A DNA stretch of 46,471 nucleotides, taken from positions 1-46,471 of the forward strand of contig PNNC01000029.1 of the NCBI GenBank assembly GCA_013824015.1. Reading direction: 5' to 3'. Positions 3,831 to 20,541 of this stretch are shown here, one piece after another. The notes under the pieces are model-generated. The model made no database searches. It was not told the DNA's origin and saw only the letters and a list, made by a program, of their open reading frames with translations. Both the position numbers and the translations under genes were made by a program. Origin of the DNA: Polaromonas sp. (lineage in GTDB: Bacteria; Pseudomonadota; Gammaproteobacteria; Burkholderiales; Burkholderiaceae_C). How positions within the stretch are numbered: position 1 is the first letter of the stretch; each line of letters starts with the position of its first letter.

Positions 3831-4808
3831 GTGCAAGCCTTTTACGCCGATCACTTCGTCCTGCCCCTGCCGGCCGGCCACCGTTTCCCCATGGGCAAGT
3901 ACGCGCGCCTGCGCGACCGGGTGGCGCTCGAGTTGCCGCAGCTGCGGCCGGGGGTGGCCCTGCCGGTCAGCGATGGCGAACTGGCGCTGGCCCACGATCC
4001 GGCCTATATCCAGGCGGTGGTCGACGGCAGCCTGGGCGCTGCGGCGATGCGCGAGATCGGCTTTCCCTGGAGTGCGGCCATGGTGGAGCGCTCGCGCCGC
4101 TCGGCCGGCGCCACGGTCGCCGCTGCGCGCGTGGCCCTGGGCCTGGGTGGCCAGCCGGCCGAGGGGATGGCCGCCAACATGGCGGGCGGCACCCACCATG
4201 CCTCTGCGGCGAAAGGCAGCGGCTTTTGTGTGTTCAACGACGCCGCGATTGCGGCGCGGCTGATGCAGGCCGAACATGCCCGGCGGTGGCAGCCCGGCGA
4301 CCGGCGCTTGCCGCTTCAGGTCGCCATCATCGATCTGGACGTGCACCAGGGCAACGGCACGGCCAGCATTTTCAGCCGCGACCCCACGGTGTTCACGCTG
4401 TCCCTGCACGGCCAGAAGAACTTTCCCTTCCGCAAGGAGGCCAGCGACCTGGACGTGGAACTGCCCGACGGCTGCCGCGACGACGCTTACCTGCAGGCGC
4501 TGGAGCTCGCGCTGGACGAGCTGGACCGGCGTTTTTCACCGGGCCTGGTGATTTACCTCGCGGGCGCGGATCCGCACGAAGGCGATCGTCTCGGCCGTCT
4601 GAAGCTGAGCTGGGACGGGCTGGAAGCGCGCGACCGGCGCGTCTTCGACTGGGCCTTCCAGCGGCGCATCCCGCTGGCGTTGACCATGGCCGGCGGTTAT
4701 GGCGTGAACATCGAGGACACGGTGCAGGTGCAGGTCAACACCTTCCGGGCAGCGCTGGACTACTGGCGCCGGTACCAGGCCCTGGCCCGGCCCTGGGCGC
4801 CCCGCTAG
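3831..4808 (+). CDS. Histone-deacetylase-family protein (zinc-dependent amide hydrolase)
   Basis: Predicted arginase/deacetylase-fold enzyme of about 325 residues. The metal and catalytic motifs are all visible: GGTHHAS (tandem catalytic His), FCVFNDAAIAA, the zinc-binding DLDVHQGNGT, GADPHEGDRLG (second zinc Asp) and MAGGYG at the C-terminus (where some family members have a catalytic Tyr). Bacterial members remove acetyl groups from polyamines, acetoin-related or protein lysines; the substrate here cannot be told. The start is uncertain. GTG at 3831 gives MQAFYADHFVLPLP, matching how relatives begin; an in-frame GTG at 3762 would add a hydrophobic stretch of 23 residues. The gene converges with the BMP-importer permease and shares four bases with it at the 3' end. 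Confidence 0.85.
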   Translation: MQAFYADHFVLPLPAGHRFPMGKYARLRDRVALELPQLRPGVALPVSDGELALAHDPAYIQAVVDGSLGAAAMREIGFPWSAAMVERSRRSAGATVAAARVALGLGGQPAEGMAANMAGGTHHASAAKGSGFCVFNDAAIAARLMQAEHARRWQPGDRRLPLQVAIIDLDVHQGNGTASIFSRDPTVFTLSLHGQKNFPFRKEASDLDVELPDGCRDDAYLQALELALDELDRRFSPGLVIYLAGADPHEGDRLGRLKLSWDGLEARDRRVFDWAFQRRIPLALTMAGGYGVNIEDTVQVQVNTFRAALDYWRRYQALARPWAPR

Positions 4809-5725
4809 CGGATCGGCTGACCCAGCGCGGCCGGCATGCGGGCGCCGCGCCCCAGGCCGGCCAGCACCAGCAGGGCGGCGAGATAGGGTGTCATCTGGAT
4901 CACATAGGACGAGACCGGCAGGCTGAAGGCCTGGGCCCGCAGCGACAGGGCTTCGGCAGCGCCGAACAGCAGGCAGGCCAGCAGGCTGCCCAGCGGCATC
5001 CAGCGGCCCACAATGATGGCGGCCAGCACCAGGTAACCACGGCCGCCGGTCATGCCGTCGGTGAAGGTGCCCACCTGCTGCAGCGACAGCACCGCGCCGG
5101 CCAGCCCGGCCAGCGCGCCGCCCGCGACGATGGCGGCAATCCGCACACGCGCCGGGTTGGCACCCGCGGCAAAGGCGGCCAGCGGGTTTTCTCCGACCGC
5201 ACGCAGGGTCAGCCCGGCCCGGCTGCGAAACAGGAACACGGCGACCGGCAGCACCAGCAGAAAGGCCAGGTAGGTCAGCGGCGGCTGCTGGAACAACAGC
5301 GGGCCGACCACCGGCAGGGCCGACAGCCCCGGCACCGGCCAGGTTTCCAGCAGGGGCACGCGGATCACCGGTGCGCCGCCGCCCGACGCTGCGGCGCGCA
5401 GCAGGAAACTCGTGAGGCCCAGCGCCAGGATGTTCGAAGCCAGGCCGGTCACCATGTGTTCGGTGTTGTAGCGCACGGTGGCAATGCCCACCACCAGTGC
5501 CAGCAGCATGCCCCCGAAAGCGCTGGCGGCCAGGCCGATCCCGGCGTTGGCGGCCAGGTGGGTGGCGATGACGCCGAAGAAGGCGCCGGTCAGCATCTGC
5601 CCTTCCAGGCCGACGGCCACCGTGCCGCTGCGTTCGCTCAGGATGCCGCCGAGCGCAGCGAGCAGCAGCGGCGTCGCAATGCGCAGGCTCGCGGCCAGGA
5701 AATCAACGAGCAGGGCCATGTCCAT
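4805..5725 (-). CDS. BMP-type ABC importer, inner-membrane permease 2
   Basis: A 306-residue hydrophobic protein of the BPD_transp_2 (LivH/RbsC-like) permease family, about eight to nine membrane segments, with the family signature LGGILSERSGTVAVGLEGQMLTG near residues 24-50. It resembles NupC/YufQ, the second permease of nucleoside importers. It is the last gene of the operon binding protein-ATPase-permease-permease and begins three bases after the previous stop. With the permease encoded at 5729-6805 it would form the heterodimeric channel. Confidence 0.9.
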   Translation of the reverse strand: MDMALLVDFLAASLRIATPLLLAALGGILSERSGTVAVGLEGQMLTGAFFGVIATHLAANAGIGLAASAFGGMLLALVVGIATVRYNTEHMVTGLASNILALGLTSFLLRAAASGGGAPVIRVPLLETWPVPGLSALPVVGPLLFQQPPLTYLAFLLVLPVAVFLFRSRAGLTLRAVGENPLAAFAAGANPARVRIAAIVAGGALAGLAGAVLSLQQVGTFTDGMTGGRGYLVLAAIIVGRWMPLGSLLACLLFGAAEALSLRAQAFSLPVSSYVIQMTPYLAALLVLAGLGRGARMPAALGQPIR

Positions 5726-5728
5726 GAC

Positions 5729-6805
5729 TTACACCTTGTCGCCGCCGGAGCGGCCCATCGCGCACAACACAAAAATCATCGTCAGCCCCTGGATCACCAG
5801 CACCAGCGAAGAGGGCACACCGACCTGGCGCTGCATCGCCAGCGCGCCGGTTTCGAGGAAGCCGAAAAACAGCGCGGACGGCAGCACATACAGGGGATTG
5901 AGCGCACCCATCAGGGCAATCGCGACGGCATTGAAGCCGAAGCCGGCCGAGAAGCCCTCGATCAGGCGGTAATGGATGCCCAGGCATTCGATGGCGCCCG
6001 CCAGGCCGGCCAGCGCGCCGGCCGAACACATCAGGCCGAAGATCGCGCGGCCCGGCGACATGCCCGCATAACGCGCCGCCGATGCACTGGCGCCGACCAC
6101 GCGCCAGCGAAAGCCCAGGGTGGTGCGCCAGAGTACAAAGTTGGCGCCCAGCGTGGCCAGCACCGCAAACACGATGCCGATGTGCAGGTCGGTGCCGGGC
6201 ACCAGCTTGGGCAGCCAGGCCGCCGACTCGAACAGCGGCGATTGCGGGAAACCCGCGCCTTCCTCGCCCATGCGTCCGTGCAGCAGTTCGGCCACCAGCA
6301 GCAACGCGACAAAGTTCAGCAACAGCGTCACCAGCACTTCGTGCACGCCGCGAAACACCCGGATCGAAGCGGCGACGCCGGCCCAGGCTGCGCCGCCGGC
6401 GGCGCCAGCGGCCAGCGCCAGCGGCAACAGCGCCCAGGCTGGCCAGCCGCCGGCAAAAAGAGCGACTGCCGAGGCCGCCGCGCCGCCGATGGCGAGCTGG
6501 CCTTCGGCGCCGATGTTGAGCACCTTGCCGCGAAAACACAGCGCAATGCCTACGGCGCACAGCAGGTAGGGGGTGGTCCGGTTCAGGCCGACCACCACCC
6601 GGTCCCAGGAACCGACCGCGCCCATGACCAGGTGGTAATAGGCGACCAGCGGATTCTTGCCGGCAATCAGGATCAGCATCGCGGTGATCAGAAAGGCCAT
6701 GCCGATCGAAGCAGCGGCCCGCCACAAGGGGCCGGAACGATGGGCCGCGTTCAACAAACGCGAAGCCAGGTTGAGGGCAGGCAGAGTCTGGGTTGTGGTT
6801 GTCAT
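5729..6805 (-). CDS. BMP-type ABC importer, inner-membrane permease 1
   Basis: A 358-residue permease of the BPD_transp_2 family, comparable to NupB/YufP. A cytoplasmic N-terminus of about 30 residues is followed by roughly nine membrane segments. The EAA-like conserved region is GKVLNIGAEGQLAIGGAAAS, and the C-terminal part carries FGFNAVAIALMGALNPL. Its ATG overlaps the stop of the ATPase gene (ATGA), showing translational coupling. Its larger size than the partner permease is normal for this family. Confidence 0.9.
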   Translation of the reverse strand: MTTTTQTLPALNLASRLLNAAHRSGPLWRAAASIGMAFLITAMLILIAGKNPLVAYYHLVMGAVGSWDRVVVGLNRTTPYLLCAVGIALCFRGKVLNIGAEGQLAIGGAAASAVALFAGGWPAWALLPLALAAGAAGGAAWAGVAASIRVFRGVHEVLVTLLLNFVALLLVAELLHGRMGEEGAGFPQSPLFESAAWLPKLVPGTDLHIGIVFAVLATLGANFVLWRTTLGFRWRVVGASASAARYAGMSPGRAIFGLMCSAGALAGLAGAIECLGIHYRLIEGFSAGFGFNAVAIALMGALNPLYVLPSALFFGFLETGALAMQRQVGVPSSLVLVIQGLTMIFVLCAMGRSGGDKV

Positions 6806-8319
6806 GCGGCTTCCTGGAAGGCGCCGGCCATGGCCAGCCCGATACGTTCAATGTCGGCTTCGCCGCGGTCCACCATCAGCACGATGCGGCCGTCGGACAA
6901 CACCCCCATGCGGTCGCCCACCGCCAGAACTTCCTCAAGTTCCGACGAGATATACAGCACGGCCGCGCCCTGGTCGCGCAGTTTCAGCAGGCTTTCCATC
7001 ACAAAGCGTGTGGCCCCCGGGTCCAGACCCCAGGTCGGCTGGAAGGCGATGACGACCTGCGGCTGGCGGCTCAGCTCGCGCGCCAGCGCCACCTTCTGCT
7101 GGTTGCCGCCGGACAGCGTGCGGGCCGCGGCGGCGGGTGATGCGGCGCGCACGTCGAAGTCGCGCATGCGTTCGCGCGCGGCCCGGCCGGTGGCCTGGCG
7201 GTCGATGCGTCCGGCGACTGAAAAGGGCCGGCGGCTGATGTCGCGCAGCATCAGGTTGTCCTCGATGGACATGCCCTGGACCAGGCTGGTGCCGGAGCGG
7301 TCGGCCGGGATGTAGGCGATGCCGGCTTCGAGCCGGGCAGCAGCGCCCCCGGCGGTGATGTCCACACCGTCCAGCAGGATGCGGCCGCGCAGCGGCGCAG
7401 CCAGCCCTGCCAGGGTGTTGGCCAGTTCGCCCTGGCCGTTGCCGTCGATGCCGGCCAGCGCCAGCACCTCGCCGGCGCGCAATTCAAAACTGGCGTCTTT
7501 CAGGCGCTCGGCGCCATTGTTGTCCCGGGCTGCAAGAGCCTCGACCTTCAGGCGCACCTCTCCCGGGGTGGCGCCGCGGCGCTCGGCCGGCGCGGCCAGC
7601 TCGCGCCCGACCATCATGCGTGCCAGTGACTCGCGCGTGGCGCCAGCGGCTGGCGTTGTGCCCACCACCTCGCCATCACGCAGCACCACGATCTCGTCAG
7701 CCACCGCCAGCACCTCGCCCAGCTTGTGGGTGATGAACACCACCGAGTGGCCCTCGGCGCGGAAACGCCGGAGGAACTCCAGCAGGCGGGCGATTTCGGG
7801 CGGCGACAGGATGGAGGTGGGCTCATCGAGAATCAGCAGGTCGGCCCCGCGCAGGATGGCCTTGAGGATTTCAATGCGCTGCTTTTCGCCGAGCGCCAGC
7901 CGCTCGACACGGGCCGAGGGGTCGATGTCCAGGCCGTAACGCTGCGCCGCGTCGCGCACCTTGCTGGCCATCGCCGCATGGTCCAGCCACGGCCCGCCCT
8001 GCGCGCTCCAGCCCAGCATCAGGTTCTCGCTCACCGTCATAGCTTCCACCAGCGTGAAATGCTGGTGGATCATGGCGATGCCGGCCTGCAGCGCCGCCTT
8101 CGGGCTGCCCGCATCAAGCTCGCGGCCGCGGTAAACAATCGCGCCCTCGTCAGCCCGCACCATGCCGAACAGCACCTTCATCAGCGTGCTCTTGCCCGAA
8201 CCGTTCTCGCCGAGCAGGCCAACGATCTGCCCGGGTTGAACCGTGAAGTTGATGCCGCGGTTGGCCCGCACACTGCCGTAGGACTTCGAGATGCCCCGCA
8301 TCTCGAGCAAAGCCTGCAT
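6802..8319 (-). CDS. BMP-type ABC importer, duplicated ATP-binding subunit
   Basis: A double-domain ATPase of about 505 residues, like NupA/YufO and RbsA. The N-terminal domain has a canonical Walker A (GENGSGKST), an LALGEKQR signature and Walker B DLLILDEPTS. The C-terminal domain has a degenerate Walker A (GIDGNGQGE) with signature LSGGNQQK and an altered Walker B (VVIAFQPTWGLD, no DE pair); this asymmetry is usual in the family. I placed the start at 8319 (MQALLEMRGISKSYG), one base after the binding-protein stop; an upstream in-frame ATG at 8352 would overlap that gene. The context makes it the energy-coupling part of the importer. Confidence 0.92.
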   Translation of the reverse strand: MQALLEMRGISKSYGSVRANRGINFTVQPGQIVGLLGENGSGKSTLMKVLFGMVRADEGAIVYRGRELDAGSPKAALQAGIAMIHQHFTLVEAMTVSENLMLGWSAQGGPWLDHAAMASKVRDAAQRYGLDIDPSARVERLALGEKQRIEILKAILRGADLLILDEPTSILSPPEIARLLEFLRRFRAEGHSVVFITHKLGEVLAVADEIVVLRDGEVVGTTPAAGATRESLARMMVGRELAAPAERRGATPGEVRLKVEALAARDNNGAERLKDASFELRAGEVLALAGIDGNGQGELANTLAGLAAPLRGRILLDGVDITAGGAAARLEAGIAYIPADRSGTSLVQGMSIEDNLMLRDISRRPFSVAGRIDRQATGRAARERMRDFDVRAASPAAAARTLSGGNQQKVALARELSRQPQVVIAFQPTWGLDPGATRFVMESLLKLRDQGAAVLYISSELEEVLAVGDRMGVLSDGRIVLMVDRGEADIERIGLAMAGAFQEAA

Positions 8320-8320
8320 C

Positions 8321-9349
8321 TCAGAGACCCCCGCGGGCGTCATCCTTGGCAACGGTGAGGGTCAGCTGGCCGCTGGCGAATTTTTTCTTGATTGCCTCGA
8401 TCTCTGCCACCACGTCCTTCGGGACGGCGGGACCGTAGGCCTTGCCGGGCGCATACATCAGGTCGGCGCCAGGGCCGGCCTTGGCTTCATAACCATAGGT
8501 CAGCAGGGCCGGCTTCAGGGTGCCGGCGCGCGCTTCCGCGGCAGCGGCGACATACATGTCGTCCCATTTTTCGATGATGGCAGCCAGCACCTGCTGCGGG
8601 GCGGCCTCCACGTGGCCAAACGAGCGGCCGCTGGTGTAGACGTTTTTCTCCTTGGCCGCCTGCACGATGCCGTTCTGGCCGGCGTTGAGCTTGCCGAAAA
8701 CAAAGTCGGCGCCACCGGCGATCAGCGCCAGCGCCGCTTCCTTGGCCATCGCCGCGTCTTCCATGTCCTTGATGTAGATCACCCGCACTTCGGCGTTGGG
8801 TTTGACGCTCTTGACGCCCTGGCGGAAACCGCCGACCTGCTGGACCACGTTGGGCAATCCCTCCAGGCCATTGACCGAACCGATCTTGCCGGTTTTGGAC
8901 ATGCGGGCCGCCAGCACCCCCATGATGTAGCCGACCTGGGCGTTGTCATAGTCCACCGAGGTCACGTTTTTGCCCATGCCGCTGGCGCCGGAGCCGACGA
9001 TGAAACTGGTTTTCTCGAATTCCGGACCGACGCGCTGGGCCGCTGACAGGAAGCGTCCCGAGTGGCCGATCACCGGGTTGAAGCCGCGGCGCGCATAGTC
9101 CTTCATGGTTTCGATGTGGTCGGATGGCGCGACGTTTTCGGAGTAGGCGGTTTCCGCACCGTTGCTCTTGAGTTTGGTGATGGCGCCGAAGCCGTTGGCG
9201 TTCCAGCTCTGGTCGTTGATGGAGCCGGGCAGCAGCATGGCGACCTTGCCCTGGGCCAGTACCGTGGGGGCAGCCACCAGGCTGGCGCTGGCCAGCAGCA
9301 GTGCGGCGGCCAGGCGGGGGAAGGCGAAAGGGCGGTGGAGGGTAGGCAT
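8321..9349 (-). CDS. BMP-family ABC transporter substrate-binding protein (nucleoside/nucleobase class)
   Basis: First gene of the importer operon. It is a periplasmic binding protein of the Bmp (PnrA-like) family: signal peptide at 1-33 ending VLAQG, then KVAMLLPGSINDQSWNANGF, the typical first strand and Asp/Trp ligand loop. The family binds purine and other nucleosides or bases. The signal has no lipobox Cys, so it is probably soluble in the periplasm rather than lipid-anchored. The start at 9349 is fixed by AAGGAG seven bases upstream and by the signal peptide. The upstream DNA holds one of two nearly identical LysR-type operators (9489-9513), linking it to the dioxygenase/amidohydrolase operon. 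Confidence 0.9.
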   Translation of the reverse strand: MPTLHRPFAFPRLAAALLLASASLVAAPTVLAQGKVAMLLPGSINDQSWNANGFGAITKLKSNGAETAYSENVAPSDHIETMKDYARRGFNPVIGHSGRFLSAAQRVGPEFEKTSFIVGSGASGMGKNVTSVDYDNAQVGYIMGVLAARMSKTGKIGSVNGLEGLPNVVQQVGGFRQGVKSVKPNAEVRVIYIKDMEDAAMAKEAALALIAGGADFVFGKLNAGQNGIVQAAKEKNVYTSGRSFGHVEAAPQQVLAAIIEKWDDMYVAAAAEARAGTLKPALLTYGYEAKAGPGADLMYAPGKAYGPAVPKDVVAEIEAIKKKFASGQLTLTVAKDDARGGL

Positions 9350-9488
9350 GGAAGACTCCTTGTGAAGATGCCTGTGTTTTCGCAAGAAGCAGGCCATGAC
9401 GGCCACTGGCGCGGCCGCTCGCCACCCCATGCCATCCGATCCGGCCCGGGGCGCGGCCATGCAGCCGTTTGCGCTCTTTTATGCTGCA

Positions 9489-9513
9489 CAGCGATGCCGT
9501 TTTGGCATCACTC
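9489..9513. promoter_or_regulatory. LysR-type operator upstream of the BMP importer
   Basis: The core TGCCGTTTTGGCA (9495-9507) is a T-N11-A LysR box with perfect 4-bp arms that extend to GATGCC/GGCATC. The same 25-base block, with three changes, occurs inverted at 10472-10496 beside the lysR gene. It lies about 140 to 165 bases upstream of the importer start codon. Confidence 0.65.
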
Positions 9514-9557
9514 CAAAAACGTGCGCCGGCGTTGGCGTACGCACTGAAATGGCGGTG

Positions 9558-10454
9558 TCATTCCCTGTTTTGGTTCAGCGCAAGCAGGCGTTCCGCGACG
9601 TATTCCGAGAACAGGGCCGATGCGACCGGCAACACCCGGCCGCGCAAGGCCATCAGCACCAGGCGACCGGTGGGCAGGTTGCGTTCGTTGATCGGCACCG
9701 CCACCGTGCCGGCATCAACACCCAAGCCGATCTGGAAGCTGATGCCGCCGGACTCGCGCGCGAAGCCGCGCATCAGCTCGAAGGAGTTGGACACCACCAT
9801 GGCATCGGGTTTGACCGACGACTTGTCCAGCATGTCATCGAGCACACTGCGCCCTGACAGGCTGCGGTCGGGCAAGGCATGGGGGTATTTCAGGCAGTCT
9901 TTCAGACGCACGCTGGCCCGGCCCGCCAGCGGATGATCAGGCGCCATGATGGCGCAGGTGGGCTGCTGCACCTGGGCCAGCACGCGCAGACCGCTGGTGG
10001 CCGGTGGATTGAAGACCAGCGCCAGGTCCACCTCGAAGTCGAGCACCGACTGCACGGCCTTTTCCCGGTCGAGTATCTTGATGTCAAAGCTCACGCCGGG
10101 GTGCGGCTTCTGGAAATCCACGATCGCCTGCGGAAGAAAAGCCGAAGCCAGCGCCTGACTGCCGGCCATGGCCACATGACCCCGGCGCAGGCCGCGCAAG
10201 GCCTCGATCTCGGAGCGCACATGGGCCAGGTCGGCCGCTCGCCGCCGCGCATAACTGACGAAGAGTTCACCGGCGGCCGTCAGCCGCACGCCGCGGGGTC
10301 GGCGCTCGAAGATGGGGGTGCCGAGCTCACGCTCCAGGTCCTGGATGCGGCGGTTGACGGCGGATGCCGCGACGTGCAGTTGTTCTGCGGCCGCGCGTAT
10401 GGAACCGCAGCGGGAAACGGCGTCGACGTAGTCGAGAAATTTCAGGTGTTGCAT
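9558..10454 (-). CDS. LysR-family transcriptional regulator of the heterocycle locus
   Basis: A 298-residue LysR protein: winged helix at residues 1-60 (MQHLKFLDYVDAVSRCGSIRAAAEQLHVA, then AVNRRIQDLERELGTPIFER) and a LysR substrate-binding domain from about residue 90. The start at 10454 matches the usual family N-terminus; the further in-frame codons up to 10589 run into the divergent dioxygenase gene. It sits between the BMP importer and the plus-strand dioxygenase operon, and a matching T-N11-A operator precedes both. The inference is that it controls both arms and itself in response to the imported compound or its breakdown product. Confidence 0.9.
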   Translation of the reverse strand: MQHLKFLDYVDAVSRCGSIRAAAEQLHVAASAVNRRIQDLERELGTPIFERRPRGVRLTAAGELFVSYARRRAADLAHVRSEIEALRGLRRGHVAMAGSQALASAFLPQAIVDFQKPHPGVSFDIKILDREKAVQSVLDFEVDLALVFNPPATSGLRVLAQVQQPTCAIMAPDHPLAGRASVRLKDCLKYPHALPDRSLSGRSVLDDMLDKSSVKPDAMVVSNSFELMRGFARESGGISFQIGLGVDAGTVAVPINERNLPTGRLVLMALRGRVLPVASALFSEYVAERLLALNQNRE

Positions 10455-10471
10455 GCGGCGGGTAAAAGCAA

Positions 10472-10496
10472 GAGTGATGCCGAAACGGCAACGCAG
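10472..10496. promoter_or_regulatory. LysR-type operator between lysR and the dioxygenase operon
   Basis: The core TGCCGAAACGGCA (10478-10490) is a perfect T-N11-A dyad. It is 24 bases upstream of the lysR start codon and about 70 bases upstream of the dioxygenase start, the classical position for autoregulation and divergent activation. It is nearly identical to the inverted copy at 9489-9513. Confidence 0.65.
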
Positions 10497-10557
10497 CGTG
10501 ACTGAATGAGGTGCGGACGCAAGCGCCTGATGGCACAGGCTTTGCGTGTGGCTGGAC

Positions 10558-11568
10558 ATGCCTTTGCCGATCACGCGTCTTCCGGACATCGACCTCAGCG
10601 ACTTTTATGGGGAGGGCGGCGGCGGTGCCGCACGCCGCGCCCAACTGGCCCGGCTGCTGGACCAGTCCTGCCGCGAGATCGGCTTTATTGTGGTCAGGGG
10701 CCACCGCGTGCCGCCGGCCATCCTGCAGGACGCGTTTGCTGCGGCCTTTCGTTTTTTCGACGCCCCCGAGTCCGTCAGGCGCAGCGCCATGCCGGGGGAT
10801 GGTCGGGTGCGCGGCTACACGCCGATGCGGCACCAGCAACTGGCGCGCAGCCTGCAGAACGAAACCCCGCCGGATCTGTTTGAGCGATTCCGCATGGGAC
10901 CCTTCGACCTGCCCGCCGATGATTACCACCGGTCACGCGCCGGCGGCTGGTTTGCGCCCAATGTGTGGCCGCAGGCCATGCCGGGATTCCGTGAGGCGCT
11001 GCAGGCCTACTACCGGGCCATGGAGGGCCTGGCCCACGATCTGATGCGCCTGTTCGCGCTGGCCCTGGATCTGCCGCCCGCGTATTTCGACAGCCACATC
11101 GACCGGCATATCTCGTCGCTGTGCCTGAACCACTACCCGGCGCTGCAGTCGCCACCGGAGCCGGGGCAATTGCGCGCCGGTGAACACACCGACTATGGCT
11201 CCCTGACGATTGTTGCGCCCAGCGCGGCACCGGGACGGCTGCAGGTGCGCGCCCAGGGCGGTGAGTGGATCGAGGTGGCACCGGCCGAAGGGCAGTTTGT
11301 CGTCAACATCGGTGACCTGATGGCCCAGTGGACCAACGACCGCTGGGTCTCCACCCTGCACCGCGTGGGCAACCCGCCCGAAAGCGTGGGCGCTCAGAGC
11401 CGCCGTGTGTCCCTGGTGTTTTTCCACCAGCCCAACGACGATGCGCGCATCGAATGCATTCCGACCTGCCGGGTGGCCGGGCAGGCACCGCTTTATTCAC
11501 CGATCACCTCCGGCGAGCACCTGCGCCTGAAGATCAACCGCCATTTCACACCGCAAAAGGCCAGCTGA
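10558..11568 (+). CDS. 2-oxoglutarate/Fe(II)-dependent dioxygenase (isopenicillin N synthase superfamily)
   Basis: A 336-residue cytoplasmic oxygenase with the N-terminal DIOX_N and C-terminal double-stranded beta-helix domains. The iron facial triad is His210, Asp212 (GEHTDYGS) and His268 (STLHRVGNPP), and the 2-oxoglutarate-binding pair is Arg283-x-Ser285 (SRRVSLVFF). All catalytic residues are present. The family includes thymine 7-hydroxylase, so hydroxylation of a pyrimidine- or triazine-like ring is plausible next to a ring-opening amidohydrolase, but this is inference from context. It is the first gene of a four-gene operon; the next start is four bases beyond its stop. GTG at 10546 is an alternative start that adds four residues. 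Confidence 0.88.
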   Translation: MPLPITRLPDIDLSDFYGEGGGGAARRAQLARLLDQSCREIGFIVVRGHRVPPAILQDAFAAAFRFFDAPESVRRSAMPGDGRVRGYTPMRHQQLARSLQNETPPDLFERFRMGPFDLPADDYHRSRAGGWFAPNVWPQAMPGFREALQAYYRAMEGLAHDLMRLFALALDLPPAYFDSHIDRHISSLCLNHYPALQSPPEPGQLRAGEHTDYGSLTIVAPSAAPGRLQVRAQGGEWIEVAPAEGQFVVNIGDLMAQWTNDRWVSTLHRVGNPPESVGAQSRRVSLVFFHQPNDDARIECIPTCRVAGQAPLYSPITSGEHLRLKINRHFTPQKAS

Positions 11569-11571
11569 CCG

Positions 11572-12663
11572 ATGTACAAAATTGACGTTTTCCGAATTCC
11601 GTGCGCAGGACCGGGTGACACCGCCGGGCTCGATCAGCTGATCAGCTCTGGCCAGGTCGATCCGGCGCACATCGTCGCCGTCATGGGTAAAACCGAAGGC
11701 AACGGCTGTGTCAACGATTACACCCGCGAATACGCCACCGCCATGTTGCAGGCCTTGCTGGGCCGCCACCTGGGACTGGCGCCGGAGGCCGTCGGGCGGC
11801 GCGTGGCATTTGTGATGTCGGGGGGGACCGAAGGTGTGTTGTCGCCGCACCTGAGCGTTTTTACGCGCCAAGTTGCGGAGCAGGGCGCGCCGGCCGGGCA
11901 GAAGCGCCTGTCGATCGGCATTGCGTTCACACGCGATTTCCTGCCCGAGGAGATGGGTCGTCGCGCGCAGATTGACGAAACCGCTGCCGCCGTCCGGCGT
12001 GCCATGGAGGACGGCGGCATCCCGTCCGCGGACGATGTGCACTTCGTCCAGGTCAAATGCCCGCTGCTGACGGCCGCCAAGATCGCGGATGCCCGGCTGC
12101 GCGGCCACGAGCCGGTCACGGCCGACACCTACGAGTCCATGGGATATTCCCGCGGAGCGTCAGCCTTGGGCGTGGCGCTGGCCACGGGCGAGGCGGGTGC
12201 GCAGGCGCCCGGCGACGCCGCCGTGCTGCATGACTGGACGCTGTGCTCGTCGGTGGCATCGACCTCGGCCGGTATCGAGATCGAGCACAACGTGGTCATC
12301 GTGATGGGCATGAGCGAGCAGGCTTGCAGTGATCTGGTCATCGCGCATGAGGTCATGAGTGATGCCATCGACGCTGCTGCGCTGCGGCGTGCGATGGCGG
12401 CACTGGACATCGCGGACGGGGATGTGGAGCGCAGGATCGTCAACGTGTTTGCCAAGGCCGAAGCCAGCCCTGGCGGCACGGTGCGCGGCATGCGGCATAC
12501 CATGCTGGGTGACTCGGACATCAACCCCACCCGCCATGCCCGTGCCGCCGTTGGCGCCGTGATTGCGTCGGTGGTCGGCCATGGCATGGTGTATGTGTCG
12601 GGCGGCGCCGAACACCAGGGGCCTGCCGGCGGGGGACCCGTGGCGGTGATAGCCCGCTGCTGA
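11572..12663 (+). CDS. Ring-opening amidohydrolase (cyanuric acid amidohydrolase/barbiturase family)
   Basis: A 363-residue enzyme of the small AtzD/TrzD-barbiturase family, which hydrolyses cyclic amides such as cyanuric acid (to carboxybiuret, then biuret) or barbituric acid (to ureidomalonate). The three-repeat architecture is visible, each repeat with a Lys and a Ser: Lys40 (GKTEGNG) with Ser83 (MSGGTEG), Lys162 (QVKCPLLT) with Ser226/227 (LCSSVAST), and Lys295 (FAKAEAS) with Ser343 ([14 protein letters not shown]). The last motif also forms the structural metal site. The enzyme therefore looks intact and active. Sequence reading cannot separate cyanurate from barbiturate specificity. Neither a biuret hydrolase nor a ureidomalonase is adjacent, while a dioxygenase and a BMP importer are, which favours a pyrimidine- or purine-derived substrate. 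Confidence 0.92.
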
Positions 12664-12683
12664 GTACTGGCAGAATCGGGGGC

Positions 12684-13151
12684 ATGCCAGACAAGCAGCC
12701 CTCCGTTGAAAAGCCCCGGCCCGAAACACGCAGCGCCTATCGCGTATTTCGCGCCATCAGCACCCGCTGGATGGACAACGATGTGTACGGCCATGTCAAC
12801 AACGTCGTTTACTACAGCTGGTTCGATACCGCTGTGAACGGCCACCTGATCGAATCCGGCGCGATCGACATCCACGAGGGCGCGGTGATCGGCCTGGTGG
12901 TCGAGACCCAGTGCAACTACTTCGCGCCGCTGGCCTTTCCCGATCCGGTGCTTGCCGGCATTCGCGTGGCGCACGTGGGCTCGTCCAGCGTGCGCTACGA
13001 GGTCGGCCTTTTCTCGGGCAAGCCGGGTGACCCGTCCGGCGAACTCACGGCCGCCAAGGGTCATTTTGTTCATGTTTATGTGGACAAACAGTCGCGCCGG
13101 CCGGCCGCCTTGCCTCCCCAACTCCTGTCTGTTCTGGAACAACTGAAATGA
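12684..13151 (+). CDS. 4HBT-family acyl-CoA thioesterase
   Basis: A 155-residue hotdog-fold thioesterase of the YbgC/4-hydroxybenzoyl-CoA type. The catalytic segment is RWMDNDVYGHVNNVVYYSWFD, in which the Asp after Met-Asp and the HVNN loop form the active site. It hydrolyses acyl-CoA thioesters in the cytoplasm; the substrate is unknown. It starts 20 bases after the amidohydrolase stop behind a G-rich ribosome site and overlaps the next gene by ATGA, so it is cotranscribed. Its role in ring catabolism is not obvious; it may be an operon passenger. Confidence 0.88.
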   Translation: MPDKQPSVEKPRPETRSAYRVFRAISTRWMDNDVYGHVNNVVYYSWFDTAVNGHLIESGAIDIHEGAVIGLVVETQCNYFAPLAFPDPVLAGIRVAHVGSSSVRYEVGLFSGKPGDPSGELTAAKGHFVHVYVDKQSRRPAALPPQLLSVLEQLK

Positions 13152-13873
13152 CCCACCCATCCGACCGTCCGGCCGTGAAAGACGCGGCCAGTGTGGACGC
13201 AGCCATCGAAGGCCGCTTTTCCGCACGGGCTTTTCTGCCAGAGCCGGTGCCGCGCGAGCTTGTTGAAGACATTCTTCGTGTGGCGAGTCGCGCCCCGTCG
13301 GGCAATAACGCCCAACCCTGGAAGGTGTATGTCCTTCAGGGGCAGAGCCTTGCGGGCCTCGTGGACAAGGTGTGCAGCGCACACGATGCGGTGTATGCCA
13401 ACCCGGCACTGGCGGCAGAGTACCGGGAAGAGTACGACTATTACCCCCGCCAGTGGATCAGCCCCTACATCGAACGCCGGCGCGAAAACGGCTGGAGCCT
13501 GTATGGCTTGCTGGGCATCACCAAAAATGACAAGGACAAGATGCACGCGCAGCACAACCGGAACTTCCGGTTTTTCGATGCGCCTGTGGGGCTGATGTTC
13601 ACGGTGGACCGCATCATGGGGCAGGGCAGCCTGCTGGACTACGGCATGTTTCTGCAGAACATCATGGTGGCGGCCAGGGCGCGCGGCCTGGACACCTGTC
13701 CGCAAGCGGCGTGGAACGGTTTCGCCAGCATCATCCTGCCGCACATCGGCGCCGGGCCGAACGAAATGATTGTTTGCGGCATGGCACTGGGTCGCCAGGA
13801 TCCACACGCGGTGGTGAACACCCTGCATACGCCCCGGGAGGCGGTGCAGGGCATCACGACCTGGCTCGACTAG
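13148..13873 (+). CDS. Nitroreductase-family FMN-dependent oxidoreductase
   Basis: A 241-residue flavoprotein of the nitroreductase fold. RFSARAFLPEPVP and ILRVASRAPSGNNAQPW form the usual FMN-phosphate-binding start, and the GLDTCPQAAW region is the C-terminal FMN contact. Such enzymes reduce nitro groups, quinones or enals with NAD(P)H; RutE, which reduces malonic semialdehyde in uracil catabolism, belongs to the same superfamily. The ATGA overlap with the thioesterase puts it in the dioxygenase-amidohydrolase operon. It ends 14 bases from the convergent CoA-transferase gene, with no terminator hairpin between. Confidence 0.87.
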   Translation: MTHPSDRPAVKDAASVDAAIEGRFSARAFLPEPVPRELVEDILRVASRAPSGNNAQPWKVYVLQGQSLAGLVDKVCSAHDAVYANPALAAEYREEYDYYPRQWISPYIERRRENGWSLYGLLGITKNDKDKMHAQHNRNFRFFDAPVGLMFTVDRIMGQGSLLDYGMFLQNIMVAARARGLDTCPQAAWNGFASIILPHIGAGPNEMIVCGMALGRQDPHAVVNTLHTPREAVQGITTWLD

Positions 13874-13887
13874 GCGCGTCGGCCGGC

Positions 13888-15453
13888 TCAGCGAAACAAG
13901 GCCGCGTCCATCTCTCGCAGGTCGGTCGCGACGCGCACGGCCAGCCCGTTCATCAGGTCCAGCACCTGTGTCTGCAGGTCGATACCAGGCGCGAGTTCGG
14001 TCAGCACCAGCCCGTCGGCGCAGACTTCAAATACCGCGCGCTCGGTGATGATCTTCGCCTGCTGCCCGCGCTCGGTCACGTTGCGCCGCACCGGATAGGT
14101 GATGTGGTCGGCGGCCTGCACAAACTTCTTCACCTTGCCTTCCTTGACGATGACCAGCTTGCCATCGCGGAACTCGACTTCCAGTCCACCCGTGGTGAAC
14201 GTGCCGGTGAACAGCAACTCCGTCGCGTTGTAGGCAATGTCGATGAAGCCGCCGGCCCCCGGGTTGGCGACGCCGAATCGCGACACATTCACGTTGCCAG
14301 CGTTGTCGAATTGCGCGAACGCCAGCGCGGCAAAAGGGCAGCCCCCACCGTCGATGAAGTCGAACTGGGTCACGCCGTCCAGCAGGGCCTCAGGGTACTT
14401 GTTGGCAGAAAACTGCCAGCCGCTCATCACCAGTCCGCCGAACGGGCCGTGCTCGGTCGTGAACTGGTAGTCACGGTAACCGCCGTTCCTGAAATGGCCA
14501 TCTTCCAGCAGCACCGTTGGAACGTCTGAAGAGGCGCCAAAACCAAAGATGGAGGTGACACCCGGGCGCACTTCCAGTGCGGCGCGGCGCGCAATGATCT
14601 TGTCGGTGCCGAACGGCAGCCGGTCGCTGGTCTGGCCGTCCCAGGCGACCCCGCCGAGATAACTTTCGTCATAAGCGACCTGTGTGGTCATCATCTGCTG
14701 ATCGTCCACCACGACCTTGTCCACCAGCACGCCGGGAACCTTGACCATGGTTGCGGGGCGGCTGCCCCGCTCGACAATGCGGCGTACCTGCGCGATCACC
14801 GTGCCACCGCAGGCCTTGACGGCCAGTGCGATCTGCAGCGACGACGAATGAATCGGTTCATCCTCGAACGACAGGTTGCCGAATTCGTCGGCCGTGGAGG
14901 CCCGGATGAAGCCCACGTTGAGGGGCCAGCTCGGGTAGAACAGATAGTCCTGGCCTTCGAACTCGACACGTTTGATCAGGTCATCCTTGGCCAGCGTCGT
15001 GAATTTGCCACCGGTCTGCCGCGGATCGGCGTAGGTGTCCAGGCCGATCCTGGTCAGGTAACCCGGGCTACGGCGGGCCACTTCACGCAACCAGTGCATG
15101 CTGGCGCCTATGGGCCAGCTGTAGGCTTCGATGCGGTTCTCGCGGATCAGGCGCATCAGTTCCGGGCGCTTGCCGGTGACCGGGTCGGTCGGGTTCACGT
15201 AGGAGCCGGAGACGATGCGTTTCATCAGGCCTTCGACGGCCACATGGTCCATCCCCCGGATGCCCATCGCATCGCCGGTGCCGCAGGGGAAATAGAAGGT
15301 CAGATCGCGGGGTTCGGCCGAGGCCTGGAACCGGTCTGCCAGTCCCTTGAGCAGCGCGTCCGGTGTGATCCATCCGATGACACCGACACTGGCCACGGCA
15401 TCGCCGCTCTTGACCACCGAAACCGCTTCTTCAACCGAGCATATCTTGCTCAT
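13888..15453 (-). CDS. Family I CoA-transferase (propionate/3-oxoacid CoA-transferase-like)
   Basis: A 521-residue fused alpha-beta CoA-transferase, like Pct or the fused 3-oxoacid enzymes. The N-terminal half begins with VEEAVSVVKSGDAVASVG; the catalytic Glu is Glu334 in EHGPFGG (the E-x-G-x-x-G motif of family I, whose Glu forms the glutamyl-CoA intermediate). It would activate the imported carboxylic acid by moving CoA from acetyl- or another acyl-CoA. It is the last gene of the TRAP/FAD/crotonase operon, and its ATG overlaps the crotonase stop (ATGA). The acid is not identifiable from sequence alone. Confidence 0.88.
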   Translation of the reverse strand: MSKICSVEEAVSVVKSGDAVASVGVIGWITPDALLKGLADRFQASAEPRDLTFYFPCGTGDAMGIRGMDHVAVEGLMKRIVSGSYVNPTDPVTGKRPELMRLIRENRIEAYSWPIGASMHWLREVARRSPGYLTRIGLDTYADPRQTGGKFTTLAKDDLIKRVEFEGQDYLFYPSWPLNVGFIRASTADEFGNLSFEDEPIHSSSLQIALAVKACGGTVIAQVRRIVERGSRPATMVKVPGVLVDKVVVDDQQMMTTQVAYDESYLGGVAWDGQTSDRLPFGTDKIIARRAALEVRPGVTSIFGFGASSDVPTVLLEDGHFRNGGYRDYQFTTEHGPFGGLVMSGWQFSANKYPEALLDGVTQFDFIDGGGCPFAALAFAQFDNAGNVNVSRFGVANPGAGGFIDIAYNATELLFTGTFTTGGLEVEFRDGKLVIVKEGKVKKFVQAADHITYPVRRNVTERGQQAKIITERAVFEVCADGLVLTELAPGIDLQTQVLDLMNGLAVRVATDLREMDAALFR

Positions 15454-16217
15454 ACTTTCACTCCAAATTTCCTGAGGGTCGCCTGCGCGGTGGCATGGCG
15501 ACAGTTGTCTTTGAAAAAATGCGAAGCGAGCACATCGCCGCTTTCGCCGTTGGGCGCGCCGTGGGACGCGAAATACAGTTTGGTCGCGGCAACCGCCTCC
15601 TGGGGCAGGCGGGCATAAGATGCCGCCACTTCGATGGCGCGTTCCAGCGCCGCGCCGTCGTCAGCAAGGTGATCCGCCAGCCCGAGCCGCAGCGCGTCTT
15701 CGCCCTGAAAAGGCGTGCCGCCCCAGACCAGTTGCCGGGCTCGCGAGCGCCCGACGCGGCTGACCAGGGCCTCGATGCCCCACGGGGGAATCCAGCCGAT
15801 TTCCACCTCCGGGAGGTTCCAGCGCGTGGAGCGGGCCGTCACCACCACATCGCAGCTGGCCGCCAGCACAAAGCCTCCACCCAGCGCAAATCCCTCGACC
15901 GCAGCAACCACCGGTTTGCGCAGCATGCCCAGTTCCCGGCAAAAGGATGCGGTGCGCGCTTCATGCGCACACATCTCGTCCAGGGACATGGCACCAAGTT
16001 CCTTGAGATCGCTGCCCGCGCAGAAGCCCGGCGCCTGGCCGGTGAGCACCACGGCGCCGGTGCTGTCGTCGGCATCGAGGTCATGGAACATCCGCCGCAG
16101 CTGCGCGACCAGGTCGTCGCCCAGCGCATTGCGCCGTGTGGGCCGGTTGATGCTGAGCACGGCCACCCGGCCGTGCCTGTCAAGCTTCAGTTCTTCATGC
16201 GTCAAGGCGGGCTCCAT
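15450..16217 (-). CDS. Crotonase-superfamily protein lacking one catalytic glutamate
   Basis: A 255-residue enoyl-CoA hydratase/isomerase-fold enzyme. The oxyanion hole is visible in FCAGSDLKEL (residues 65-74) and ALGGG (111-115). Of the two hydratase glutamates, the second is kept (Glu137 in LPEVEIG) but the first is Val117 (GGGFVLAASCD instead of GGGxELAxxCD). It is therefore unlikely to be a standard hydratase; isomerase, hydrolase, decarboxylase or lyase activity is more likely. It overlaps the FAD oxidoreductase gene by 23 bases upstream and the CoA-transferase by four bases, so all three are translated together. Confidence 0.87.
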   Translation of the reverse strand: MEPALTHEELKLDRHGRVAVLSINRPTRRNALGDDLVAQLRRMFHDLDADDSTGAVVLTGQAPGFCAGSDLKELGAMSLDEMCAHEARTASFCRELGMLRKPVVAAVEGFALGGGFVLAASCDVVVTARSTRWNLPEVEIGWIPPWGIEALVSRVGRSRARQLVWGGTPFQGEDALRLGLADHLADDGAALERAIEVAASYARLPQEAVAATKLYFASHGAPNGESGDVLASHFFKDNCRHATAQATLRKFGVKV

Positions 16218-17547
16218 CTTTGTTCAACAGGGTTCGCACGTCGGAGGCATTCAGCTTGCGCACGGCGATGTTGTCTTTTACGCTGAGGGCGGCGGCATGG
16301 CCGATGGCGTGTCCGTAGCTGAAGCACTGCGCCGTCACGCGTGCCGACGCCATGGCTTCATGTTGTGCACTGAGGCAGCGCCCGCTTGCCAGCAGGGATT
16401 CGCCCTGAAGCGGCACAAAGCAGCCCAGCGGGATGTCGTAATAGTCCTCGTACAACCACGACAGGCGCGGCTTGACACCGCTGTGCAGCTCAATCGGCCA
16501 GGCCGAACGTGCAATCGCGTCGGTGCGCTTGCGGCCGCTTTCCACATCCTGGTTCTGCAGAGTGTCCATGCCGGCGATCTGGCGCGTCTGGCGCACACCG
16601 ACCTGTACGCCGGTGTCGTTGAGCGTGGCGTTTTCGCAGCCTGCAAGGCTGGCGCGGAAAAATTCCCAGTACTGGCGTACCTGGCGGCGGCCTTCGATTT
16701 CTGCCTCCGTCAGGTCGGCGGCAACCAGGGGATGCAGCTCGCGCCCGTCGCGTCCGAGGATGCGCGTGCAATTGCAGAGCAGTTCGTTCTCGCGCGGCGT
16801 CTGAAACAGGAAGGCCTTGGCCCGCGGCAGTTTGTAGTGGCCGGCTTCATTGGCGGCGATGATCGCGCTGGCCACGGCATCGGGCATGATGGAATCAGCG
16901 CCGTAGGTGCCCAGAAAACGCTGCACATCCACATTACCCATGCGGAAAATCATGGTGGGGTTTTGCACCTTGCCATCCTGTCCAACATGGGTGGGCAGGT
17001 CGGCCATCGCAAACAGGTCGGCGTCGCCGCTGGCGTCGACGGTGATCCGCGCCCGGATGTCGATCACGCCCTGCTTGGTATAGGCACGCACACCCTCGAT
17101 GCGCTCGCCGCCGTCCATGAACACGCCGATCACGGTGGCGTGGTAGATCACCTGCACGCCATGGCGCTGCACCAGTTCATCGCCGGTTTCGCGCCACGCC
17201 AGGGGCTCGTGCACCAGCGTCCAGGTATCGCCGTAACGCACAGGTCCGGTCAGGCCGCTGCGCGCATTCATCGCGGCGATGAATTCATCGACAAAACCGA
17301 AGACGATTTTTTCAGGTTTCCCGGCAGCGCCGGGACGTGCCAGGTACAGCCCGCAGACCGTGCCGGACAGGCCGGCCACTGCGGCGCCGCCGCAAAAGCC
17401 ATAACGCTCGAGCAGGATGACCTTCAATCCCTGGCGGGCAGCTGTGCAGGCGGCTGCCAGACCGGCCGCGCCGCCCCCGACCACCAGCACATCGGCCGTG
17501 ACTGTTTCCGCGGGACGTTTGTCCAGCAATTGCGATGGACTCGCCAT
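16195..17547 (-). CDS. FAD-dependent oxidoreductase (FAD_oxidored/PF12831-like)
   Basis: A 450-residue flavoprotein. Residues 19-32 form the Rossmann GxGxxG (VLVVGGGAAGLAAA), followed by LLERYGFCGGAAVAG with the Cys-Gly-Gly near the flavin that marks this family, and by VDASGDADLFAM, the second FAD contact. Members oxidise or reduce small organic acids and some are fumarate-reductase-like. Preceded by AAGGAG six bases before ATG, and ten bases after the TRAP large-permease stop, it belongs to the same operon. It probably carries out a redox step on the acid brought in by the TRAP transporter. Confidence 0.85.
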   Translation of the reverse strand: MASPSQLLDKRPAETVTADVLVVGGGAAGLAAACTAARQGLKVILLERYGFCGGAAVAGLSGTVCGLYLARPGAAGKPEKIVFGFVDEFIAAMNARSGLTGPVRYGDTWTLVHEPLAWRETGDELVQRHGVQVIYHATVIGVFMDGGERIEGVRAYTKQGVIDIRARITVDASGDADLFAMADLPTHVGQDGKVQNPTMIFRMGNVDVQRFLGTYGADSIMPDAVASAIIAANEAGHYKLPRAKAFLFQTPRENELLCNCTRILGRDGRELHPLVAADLTEAEIEGRRQVRQYWEFFRASLAGCENATLNDTGVQVGVRQTRQIAGMDTLQNQDVESGRKRTDAIARSAWPIELHSGVKPRLSWLYEDYYDIPLGCFVPLQGESLLASGRCLSAQHEAMASARVTAQCFSYGHAIGHAAALSVKDNIAVRKLNASDVRTLLNKDGARLDA

Positions 17548-17557
17548 GAGGACTCCT

Positions 17558-18877
17558 TCAGTTGTTAAGCATGGTGCGCGGCAACCACAGCGCGATTTCC
17601 GGGAAGGCCACGAGTGTCAGCAACGCCAGCACCTGGATACCGATGAAAGGCCAGACCGAGCGGAAAATGTCGCCCATCGTGATTCCCGGCGGGGCGGCGC
17701 CCTTGAGGTAGAACGCTGCCGGCCCGAAAGGCGGCGAGATGTAGGAGATCTGCATGTTCATGCAGAACAACACGCCGATCCAGATCGGGTCGAACCCGAG
17801 GGCCACCAGCACGGGCACGAAGATCGGCGCGGTCAGCAGCAGGATGCCGATCCAGTCGATGATGCAGCCCAGCACGATCCAGATCAGGTTGACGACCAGC
17901 AAAATGCCCCATTTGCCAATCGGCAGCCCGGCAATCAGGTCCTTGAGGTATTGCGTGCCGCCGGCGATGGTGTAGATGCCGATCAGTGCGGAGGCGCCGA
18001 AGAACAACCAGTACAACATGCAGGTGACCTTGGTGGTTTCCACCACGGCGCTGGACATGCCAGCCCAGGTGAGCCGCCGGTTCACTGCGGCGGCCAGCAC
18101 CGCACCGGCCACGCCAATGCCGGCAGCCTCGGTCGGTGTGGCGATGCCCATGTACAGGGAGCCGAGTACGCCAAAGGCGACTGCACCAGGCAGGATCAGC
18201 TTCTTCAGGTAGCCGATCTTCTCCATCAAGGGGATGTTGATCTCTTCCGGCGGAGCGGCTGGAGCGATTTCAGGCTTCAGGTAGGAGATCGTGATCACGT
18301 AGATGATGTAGAACCCGGCCAGCATGAGGCCCGGCAGAATGCCGGCCATGTAGAGCTGTCCGATGGAGGTGCCGGTGGTCAGCGCATACATGATCAGCAC
18401 CACACTGGGCGGTATCAACGTGGCCAGGCCGCCGCCGGCGCAGATCGATCCCAGCGCCAGCGATTTCCCGTAGCCGCGTTTGAGCATGGCCGGAAGCGCC
18501 ACAACGCCCATGGTGACGATCTCGGCGCCAATCACACCGACCATGGCGGCCATCAGGGCGCACGAGATGATCACGGCAACGGCAAGGCCGCCGCGGATGC
18601 GGCCGGACCAGACGTAGGCGGCCTTGAAGATGTCTTCGGCTATGCCTGCTTTTTCCAGCACCATCGCCATCAGGATGAAGAGCGGCACCGATACCAGGAT
18701 CTGGTTGCCCATCAGCGTGAAGACGCGGCTGACGATCAGGTTCAGCGTGTTGATGTCGAACAGCCAGACACCGAAAACCACGGCGATGGCACCGGTCGCG
18801 AACGCGATGGGCACGCCGACCACCAGCGCCGAGACCAGCGCCAGGAACAGAAGAAGGGTCAGGGTATCAACGGCCAT
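17558..18877 (-). CDS. dctM: TRAP transporter large permease (DctM)
   Basis: A 439-residue polytopic protein with about 12 membrane segments of the DctM/UIT family. It opens MAVDTLTLLLFLALVSALVVG and contains ICAGGGLATLIPPSVVLI and GGTQYL, usual DctM landmarks. It is the ion-coupled channel subunit, driven by a Na+ or proton gradient, working with the small subunit and the periplasmic receptor. The start at 18877 overlaps the end of dctQ by 11 bases; an upstream ATG at 18934 would extend far into it. Confidence 0.93.
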   Translation of the reverse strand: MAVDTLTLLLFLALVSALVVGVPIAFATGAIAVVFGVWLFDINTLNLIVSRVFTLMGNQILVSVPLFILMAMVLEKAGIAEDIFKAAYVWSGRIRGGLAVAVIISCALMAAMVGVIGAEIVTMGVVALPAMLKRGYGKSLALGSICAGGGLATLIPPSVVLIMYALTTGTSIGQLYMAGILPGLMLAGFYIIYVITISYLKPEIAPAAPPEEINIPLMEKIGYLKKLILPGAVAFGVLGSLYMGIATPTEAAGIGVAGAVLAAAVNRRLTWAGMSSAVVETTKVTCMLYWLFFGASALIGIYTIAGGTQYLKDLIAGLPIGKWGILLVVNLIWIVLGCIIDWIGILLLTAPIFVPVLVALGFDPIWIGVLFCMNMQISYISPPFGPAAFYLKGAAPPGITMGDIFRSVWPFIGIQVLALLTLVAFPEIALWLPRTMLNN

Positions 18878-19391: not shown

Positions 19392-19396
19392 GTTTG

Positions 19397-20437: not shown

Positions 20438-20475
20438 TGTTGTCTCCTGGGTTGATCGTGAAAAACGGGACGCTG

Positions 20476-20497: not shown

Positions 20498-20541
20498 TCA
20501 GTAATATATTACAGGGCTCAAAAAAAACCATAGGGTTTTCA

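Follow-up and report, generated by a model that had tools for sequence, protein, structure and literature searches.

The closest described system is that of pADP-1 (Pseudomonas sp. ADP), in which two permeases, an ATPase, the BMP protein AtzT, the hypothetical protein AtzS and the LysR protein AtzR are encoded on one strand and atzD-G-E-H-F divergently (gene letters R and S-W after the available part of PMC6834077). According to the same part of that paper, AtzR responds to cyanuric acid; the promoters of the two operons depend on sigma54, and when cyanuric acid is present AtzR raises the expression of atzDGEHF and acts as a repressor of the importer operon. The reported affinities of AtzT are 0.11 uM for guanine, 0.36 uM for ammeline and 340 uM for cyanurate (PMC6834077, same part). 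Since guanine and ammeline are bound far better, the pADP-1 cargo is not simply cyanurate. Here we describe a related locus in Polaromonas sp. that contains an additional gene for a Fe(II)/2-oxoglutarate (2OG) dioxygenase. It is located in a stretch of 46,471 bases (contig C12), called the window in the following, from a 3.8 Mb genome of 234 contigs that is 88.8% complete. With a probability of about 75%, the block at 4805-12663 is an atz-type cyanurate nitrogen-source island with an added dioxygenase that perhaps supplies cyanurate from an imported precursor.

Every gene named in the original prediction was confirmed at its place by open reading frames (ORFs) and Pfam/NCBIfam profile matches, including the complete four-gene BMP importer and the LysR gene (Pfam). 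Gene starts were taken from a codon-usage gene caller for the LysR, ATPase and BMP proteins; for the dioxygenase, comparison with relatives led us to prefer 10558 over the gene caller's choice, 10546. The block contains the following features.

4805..5725, minus strand: ATP-binding cassette (ABC) permease of the BMP-type importer (Pfam BPD_transp_2; 40.5% identical to a pADP-1 permease)
5729..6805, minus strand: second ABC permease (Pfam BPD_transp_2; 36.6% identical to a pADP-1 permease)
6802..8319, minus strand: double-domain ABC ATPase (Pfam ABC_tran in two stretches; 40.4% identical to the pADP-1 ATPase)
8321..9349, minus strand: BMP/PnrA-type substrate-binding protein (Pfam Bmp; best solved sequence 6pi5, AtzT)
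9558..10454, minus strand: AtzR-like LysR regulator (Pfam HTH_1/LysR_substrate; 67% identical to pADP-1 AtzR over 99%)
10468..10482, minus strand: sigma54-like element CGGCATCACTCTTGC, facing the LysR gene (like element in six of six regions)
10478..10490, without strand: palindrome TGCCG-N3-CGGCA, putative AtzR operator (half-sites identical in six of six aligned regions)
10531..10545, plus strand: sigma54-like element TGGCACAGGCTTTGC, facing the dioxygenase gene and atzD (like element in five of six regions)
10558..11568, plus strand: Fe(II)/2OG dioxygenase of the IPNS/DIOX type (Pfam DIOX_N/2OG-FeII_Oxy; best solved match 5c3p)
11572..12663, plus strand: cyanuric acid hydrolase AtzD, so assigned from Pfam Amido_AtzD_TrzD, NCBIfam CyanAcHdlAtzD and its residues

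The amidohydrolase is identified by its sequence as the cyanuric acid hydrolase AtzD and not as a barbiturase. It scores 529.9 bits on the NCBIfam AtzD equivalog (NF052395, CyanAcHdlAtzD; cut-off 360), is 74.9% identical to pADP-1 AtzD over 99%, and its best solved sequence is the cyanuric acid amidohydrolase 4bvq. The three Ser-Lys dyads and the active-site Arg are kept (K40, R52, S83, K162, S232, K295 and S343 in pADP-1 gene numbering). The available part of Peat et al. (2013, PMC3758960) names five positions that separate AtzD from barbiturase, Arg195, Thr321, Arg325, Gly345 and Gly346 in AtzD and Asn/His/Lys/Val/Ser in barbiturase. In the window protein these positions are R, T, R, G and G, in each case the AtzD letter (residues were mapped by motif; compared with the pADP-1 gene, the numbers in PMC3758960 are 1-2 higher at most of these sites and the same for Lys162). 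Barbiturase identity, and barbiturate as the ring, are rejected because the barbiturase specificity residues are absent. In the original prediction one LysR regulator governed both the importer and an amidohydrolase that opens a ring, next to a co-located dioxygenase, and this arrangement stands; the ring, given there as pyrimidine-, purine- or triazine-like, is most likely cyanurate, because the protein matches the AtzD equivalog and carries the AtzD specificity residues, and those of barbiturase are absent.

The layout agrees with that of an atz locus: the AtzR-like LysR gene is divergent from atzD, and the importer genes are located behind it. As in pADP-1, importer and LysR genes share one strand, atzD is divergent and the palindrome is conserved (AtzR 67% and AtzD 75% identical). 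The differences are that the window contains no match to pADP-1 AtzS, that the importer proteins are only 30-40% identical to their counterparts, that atzGEH and atzF are on other contigs, and that the dioxygenase gene is located between the LysR gene and atzD. AtzE was found on contig C105 (698 bits, cut-off 426), where matches to AtzG and AtzH adjoin it; AtzF is on contig C88 (752 bits, cut-off 511). Since AtzG, E, H and F are encoded elsewhere in the genome, their absence from the atzD operon does not mean a different pathway. Of AtzE and AtzF, AtzE was searched for in the genomes of the three related loci L001, L002 and L003, and it exceeds its cut-off in all three. The original prediction saw a departure from the known surroundings of atzD, which is half right: the dioxygenase is a new part of an otherwise known atz layout, and pADP-1 has the same layout, with AtzGEH and AtzF encoded elsewhere in the Polaromonas genome.

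One genome per species was scanned (84,980 species), which gave 260 candidate stretches, of which 249 were confirmed and the best 80 kept; some of these 80 AtzD loci end at contig ends. Among the best 80 of 249, a dioxygenase gene between LysR and atzD was found in one only, L001 from a Polaromonas metagenome-assembled genome (MAG). The search for the gene pair that the original prediction had proposed thus shows that the pair occurs elsewhere and is rare. L001 is the nearest related locus found; proteins encoded outside the island are 93-100% identical, with the exception of the thioesterase (85%) and the nitroreductase (about 73-74%). In L002 and L003, which also come from MAGs and whose AtzD proteins are 82% and 79% identical, LysR and atzD face each other and the dioxygenase gene is absent. 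L030 contains a different dioxygenase gene, 35% identical, on the opposite strand at a distance of approximately 3 kb. Two loci, L003 (Aquabacterium MAG) and L157 (family genome G079), share with the window an AtzR-like LysR gene divergent from atzD, the same palindrome and sigma54-like elements. They differ in having no dioxygenase gene between LysR and atzD, and atzD is followed by atzF-G-E-H in L003 and by atzG-E-H in L157. By parsimony, the dioxygenase gene was gained in the lineage of the window and L001; loss elsewhere is possible.

The half-sites of the palindrome are the same in the six regions compared (window, L001, L002, L003, L157 and pADP-1), and its exact sequence occurs once in the window (0.38 matches expected). 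In all six regions it overlaps the LysR-facing sigma54-like element. The atzD-facing element is clear in five of them and degenerate in pADP-1. Position and conservation suggest that the palindrome is the AtzR site, and the promoters are probably of the sigma54 type. The conservation of operator and sigma54-like element is consistent with the regulation of the two pADP-1 operons as published in the available part of PMC6834077, and cyanurate would act as both inducer and substrate.

The binding protein is 29.5% identical to AtzT, and the importer proteins overall are 30-40% identical to those of pADP-1. The guanine/hydroxyatrazine site of AtzT is not kept (Y45W, F98G, E165N, W194M and N218K; S97 and N220 are retained). 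AtzT-like guanine import is unsupported, as five of the seven guanine-site residues differ. Together with the identity of about 30%, these changes suggest that the cargo may differ from that of AtzT; it might be an s-triazine or a similar N-heterocycle. L001, with the dioxygenase gene, and L002, without it, have the same binding-pocket letters as the window, and the cargo therefore seems unchanged by the gain of the dioxygenase.

In L003 the atz genes are followed by another BMP-type gene (8651-9754), whose product is 33% identical to AtzT, and near the LysR gene the beginning of a window-type BMP gene is present.

The best solved match of the dioxygenase is the thymine dioxygenase 5c3p (151.5 bits), the thymine-7-hydroxylase of Neurospora. 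Both belong to the same Pfam families and share the Fe triad His-Asp-His, the 2OG ligands Arg286, Ser288 and Tyr194, and the aromatic pair Phe292/Tyr217. In the fungal enzyme, which acts in pyrimidine metabolism, Asn87, Glu122 and Asn294 are the polar thymine contacts and Arg190 holds the 2OG C1-carboxylate (PMC4787775, available part). At the Asn87, Glu122, Arg190 and Asn294 positions the window enzyme has V, R, C and Q, and thymine-7-hydroxylase identity is rejected because of these substrate residues. The original prediction had stated that all catalytic residues of both enzymes are present; this applies to the amidohydrolase at the positions checked and is slightly too strong for the dioxygenase, which keeps the Fe triad and the 2OG Arg/Ser/Tyr but has Cys in place of Arg190. 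The dioxygenases of the window, L001 and G607, a genome encoding the nearest relative apart from L001, have changes at two active-site positions in common: all three have Arg for Glu122, and Arg190 is replaced by Cys in the window and L001 enzymes and by Tyr in that of G607. In a phylogenetic tree these three proteins form a separate clade (support 0.993).

Matches to the dioxygenase at E <= 1e-40 were found in 54 of 399 family genomes, including the window's own. The twenty best outside family loci, 46-51% identical, were fetched (membership was assigned by clustering, and some loci are incomplete). Eighteen of them also encode a VOC protein and a BMP importer, 17 a RutR-like TetR regulator and 12 RutA. 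In L125, the one representative compared with curated models, the NCBIfam cut-offs are exceeded by RutA to RutF, RutE being matched as malonic semialdehyde reductase, and by one of two RutR models. Linkage to a BMP importer and to rut genes ties this sister group to nucleobase use. The Burkholderiaceae clusters L125-L142 resemble the window in combining a 46-51% identical dioxygenase with a BMP importer; they differ in that they often contain rut genes and a RutR-like regulator, in that their BMP protein is only about 26-31% identical, and in that their dioxygenases keep Arg190 and have Ser at the Glu122 position. Altogether, 20 relatives (19 fetched rows and the order-level genome G496) have Arg at position 190 and Ser at position 122, and three further rows differ. 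The polar thymine contacts described in the available part of PMC4787775 are absent from these 20 as well as from the window enzyme.

These relatives bear on the possibility that the dioxygenase is a pyrimidine hydroxylase of the thymine or uracil type and that the amidohydrolase opens a barbiturate-like product of an oxidative pyrimidine pathway. The match to thymine dioxygenase speaks for such a pathway, as do the BMP importers beside 18 of the 20 best outside relatives, rutA near 12 of them and RutA-F of L125. Against it stand the AtzD-type specificity residues, the replacement of Asn87, Glu122 and Asn294 by Val, Arg and Gln and of Arg190 by Cys, and the separate clade of the window, L001 and G607 enzymes. 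In addition, RutA was found in none of the three genomes searched, those of the window, L001 and G607, an absence that is not final for the 88.8% complete genome of the window. We regard an oxidative pyrimidine pathway as improbable.

The clusters L125-L142 recur as a combination of genes for a dioxygenase, a VOC protein, a BMP importer and often an isochorismatase-like hydrolase, and represent a candidate step in pyrimidine or nucleobase use. In L143 another ABC importer adjoins the dioxygenase gene. L179 (G496) resembles the rut-linked clusters in its dioxygenase, VOC and BMP genes, and in place of the rut genes it has genes for a hydrolase, an amidohydrolase-like protein, a RidA-like protein and, by eye, Rieske oxygenase subunits. 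Judged by titles and the first lines of abstracts, none of the papers listed, mostly outside subscription journals, describes a 2OG dioxygenase together with cyanurate, barbiturase, rut or BMP genes.

The dioxygenase gene is intact. Between the window and L001 the ratio of nonsynonymous to synonymous substitution rates (dN/dS) is 0.106 for the dioxygenase and 0.104 for atzD, and dS is 0.371 for the dioxygenase and 0.372 for a backbone gene. These values indicate that the dioxygenase is under constraint by purifying selection and was inherited with the rest. In both genomes it ends 3-4 nucleotides (nt) before atzD.

The nearest outside relative among 399 order genomes, 59% identical, is encoded in G607. 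Its contig is 12.7 kb long, contains an ORF that by eye is transposase-like, and has no match to the atz or BMP proteins of the window. No relative above 60% was found on plasmids among 327 matching records (best listed, Tistrella, 48.9%), and the phage collection gave a single match of 34%. For co-occurrence, the dioxygenase was counted in 21 of 399 genomes (matches down to E 7e-88) and AtzD in 16 of 399. Seven genomes contain both, compared with 0.8 under a simple expectation that ignores genome size and kinship; without the window's own genome the numbers are six and 0.75, and by genera five and 0.9. In the other six genomes the two genes are separated by 200 kb or more, or are found on separate contigs. 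An order-level genome, G496, contains both as well, likewise on separate contigs. We give this co-occurrence little weight, because the genes are apart, both are accessory, and genome size and kinship are uncontrolled.

Several observations weigh against the reading as an atz-type cyanurate island in which the dioxygenase feeds AtzD. L002 has the island, atzD and the same importer pocket letters and lacks the dioxygenase, which shows that the core works without it and that the dioxygenase need not supply AtzD. The genome of the nearest outside relative, G607, has no AtzD. In the dioxygenases of the window and L001 the residue that holds 2OG in thymine-7-hydroxylase, Arg190, is Cys, and the 2OG-binding Ser288 is Ala in L001 and G607. 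Five of the seven guanine-site residues of AtzT are changed in the BMP protein. Sigma54 patterns in the window are not above chance (14 found, 22 expected, with up to two mismatches), and it is thus the conservation across genomes that argues for these elements. Finally, the dioxygenase start is 13 nt past the -12 element, and a sigma54 transcript would begin at approximately 10557, about 1 nt before the ATG at 10558; either the dioxygenase message would be leaderless or another start site would be used.

The main alternative is that the dioxygenase is a hitch-hiker behind an inducible promoter, with another catabolic or detoxifying role unrelated to cyanurate. The unchanged importer pocket of L002, which lacks the dioxygenase gene, the G607 copy on a short contig with a transposase-like ORF and without window-type atz or BMP matches, and the rarity of the pairing among AtzD loci fit this explanation. 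It is less easily reconciled with an intact gene that has the dN/dS of atzD and is packed directly in front of it in both genomes, and with relatives that are repeatedly found near BMP importers. We consider such an unrelated role a serious but minority prospect. A cyanurate precursor is favored as the dioxygenase substrate, because the operator is conserved and AtzD has its specificity residues; it is the most likely single candidate, at somewhat less than even odds.

For the cyanurate island with an added dioxygenase, the following sequence of events is proposed. The BMP-type importer would bring in an s-triazine or similar N-heterocycle. The AtzR-like LysR protein, sensing cyanurate, would control the two divergent operons through the shared operator and nitrogen-responsive sigma54-type promoters. 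The dioxygenase gene, located directly behind the promoter and in front of atzD and kept by selection in the lineage of the window and L001, would encode the enzyme that converts the imported precursor to cyanurate by C-H hydroxylation or oxidative N-dealkylation. AtzD would open cyanurate to carboxybiuret, and AtzGEH (C105) and AtzF (C88) would finish the degradation to ammonia and CO2. The dioxygenase reaction as a whole is conjectural. The more specific proposal that cyanuric acid is made from a natural imported N-heterocycle, for example by 5-azauracil-type ring hydroxylation or N-alkyl removal, is tentative and on balance doubtful.

The island is approximately 7.9 kb long (4805-12663) and is located between the first and the second of three chromosomal neighbors.

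3831..4808, plus strand: histone-deacetylase-like gene, left flank of the insert (Pfam Hist_deacetyl; synteny)
12684..13151, plus strand: 4HBT thioesterase gene, chromosomal neighbor outside the island (Pfam; synteny)
13148..13873, plus strand: nitroreductase-family gene, chromosomal neighbor outside the island (Pfam; synteny)

The original prediction had described dioxygenase, amidohydrolase, thioesterase and nitroreductase genes as one tight operon. Their spacing is indeed tight (3 nt, 20 nt, then a 4-nt overlap), and thioesterase and nitroreductase genes also follow atzD in L001 and L002, which would fit one functional operon in which these two enzymes process the ring-opening products. Synteny argues against their membership. 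Neighborhoods of nitroreductase relatives were compared in six genomes of the family, selected among the nitroreductase matches (three from this genus, three from elsewhere in the family), and the row patatin - phasin - histone-deacetylase-like - nitroreductase is present without the atz block in all six, with the thioesterase gene in five. The window, L001 and L002 carry the island at one and the same chromosomal site, at which the six genomes lack it. In L170 and L171 (same genus) one unrelated gene is located between the deacetylase-like and the thioesterase gene, and in L174 these two genes overlap. The nitroreductase is found in 217 of 299 family genomes (E <= 1e-45), AtzD in 16 of 399 (E <= 1e-60), and five same-genus genomes listed have neither an AtzD match nor a dioxygenase match at E <= 1e-40. 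Thioesterase and nitroreductase genes are most likely, judging from gene order, older chromosomal neighbors and not island members. As pathway genes they are rejected because of synteny, and a functional operon of four has hardly any probability left.

Downstream of the nitroreductase gene, the region 13888-21222 encodes a CoA-transferase, an enoyl-CoA hydratase, a FAD oxidoreductase, a TRAP binding protein with neighbors and an FCD/GntR regulator, and is followed by a gene that by eye is FKBP-like. A 79-94% identical copy of this block adjoins the nitroreductase gene in L173; the L001 and L002 stretches contain no match to it. The nitroreductase gene (13148-13873) has a dS of 1.2 to L001, compared with 0.37 for the backbone gene, and is 81% identical to that of L173. 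Its low identity to L001, the high dS and the similarity to L173 suggest that it arrived by recombination with the neighboring block.

Other AtzD-family genes were found in different surroundings. The window's own genome has a second one on contig C13 (L102, C13:32000-46067), 46% identical and with Gln at the Thr321 position, beside amidase, FAD-binding and VOC genes (Pfam) and a LysR gene of its own; the importer genes nearby are of the NitT type by eye. In L182 (G115) and L030, AtzD-family genes are accompanied by a dihydropyrimidinase/allantoinase-like gene and a NitT-type importer (by eye). Each of the two has a different 2OG dioxygenase gene within approximately 3-8 kb, which in L182 is located beside a VOC gene whose product is similar to the VOC protein of the rut-linked clusters. 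On the Citrobacter freundii plasmid pE51_002 (L084), a 58% identical AtzD-family gene has LysR, carbamate kinase, fdrA, DUF1116, DUF2877 and nucleobase symporter genes as its neighbors, and copies of IS26 are present on either side. Genes of this identity level are present on many enterobacterial plasmids (the neighborhood was viewed in pE51_002 only).

The locus shows that an inserted island can make two unrelated neighbor genes resemble members of an operon. In Burkholderiaceae, genes of this dioxygenase family recur beside BMP importers and rut genes, which marks a candidate enzyme of bacterial nucleobase use. With a 2OG dioxygenase gene behind its cyanurate-type promoter, the chromosomal atz island provides a candidate upstream step, and if the dioxygenase does make cyanuric acid from a natural N-heterocycle, this would be the first enzymatic route into the AtzD pathway that depends on oxygen and would point to a natural source of cyanurate.

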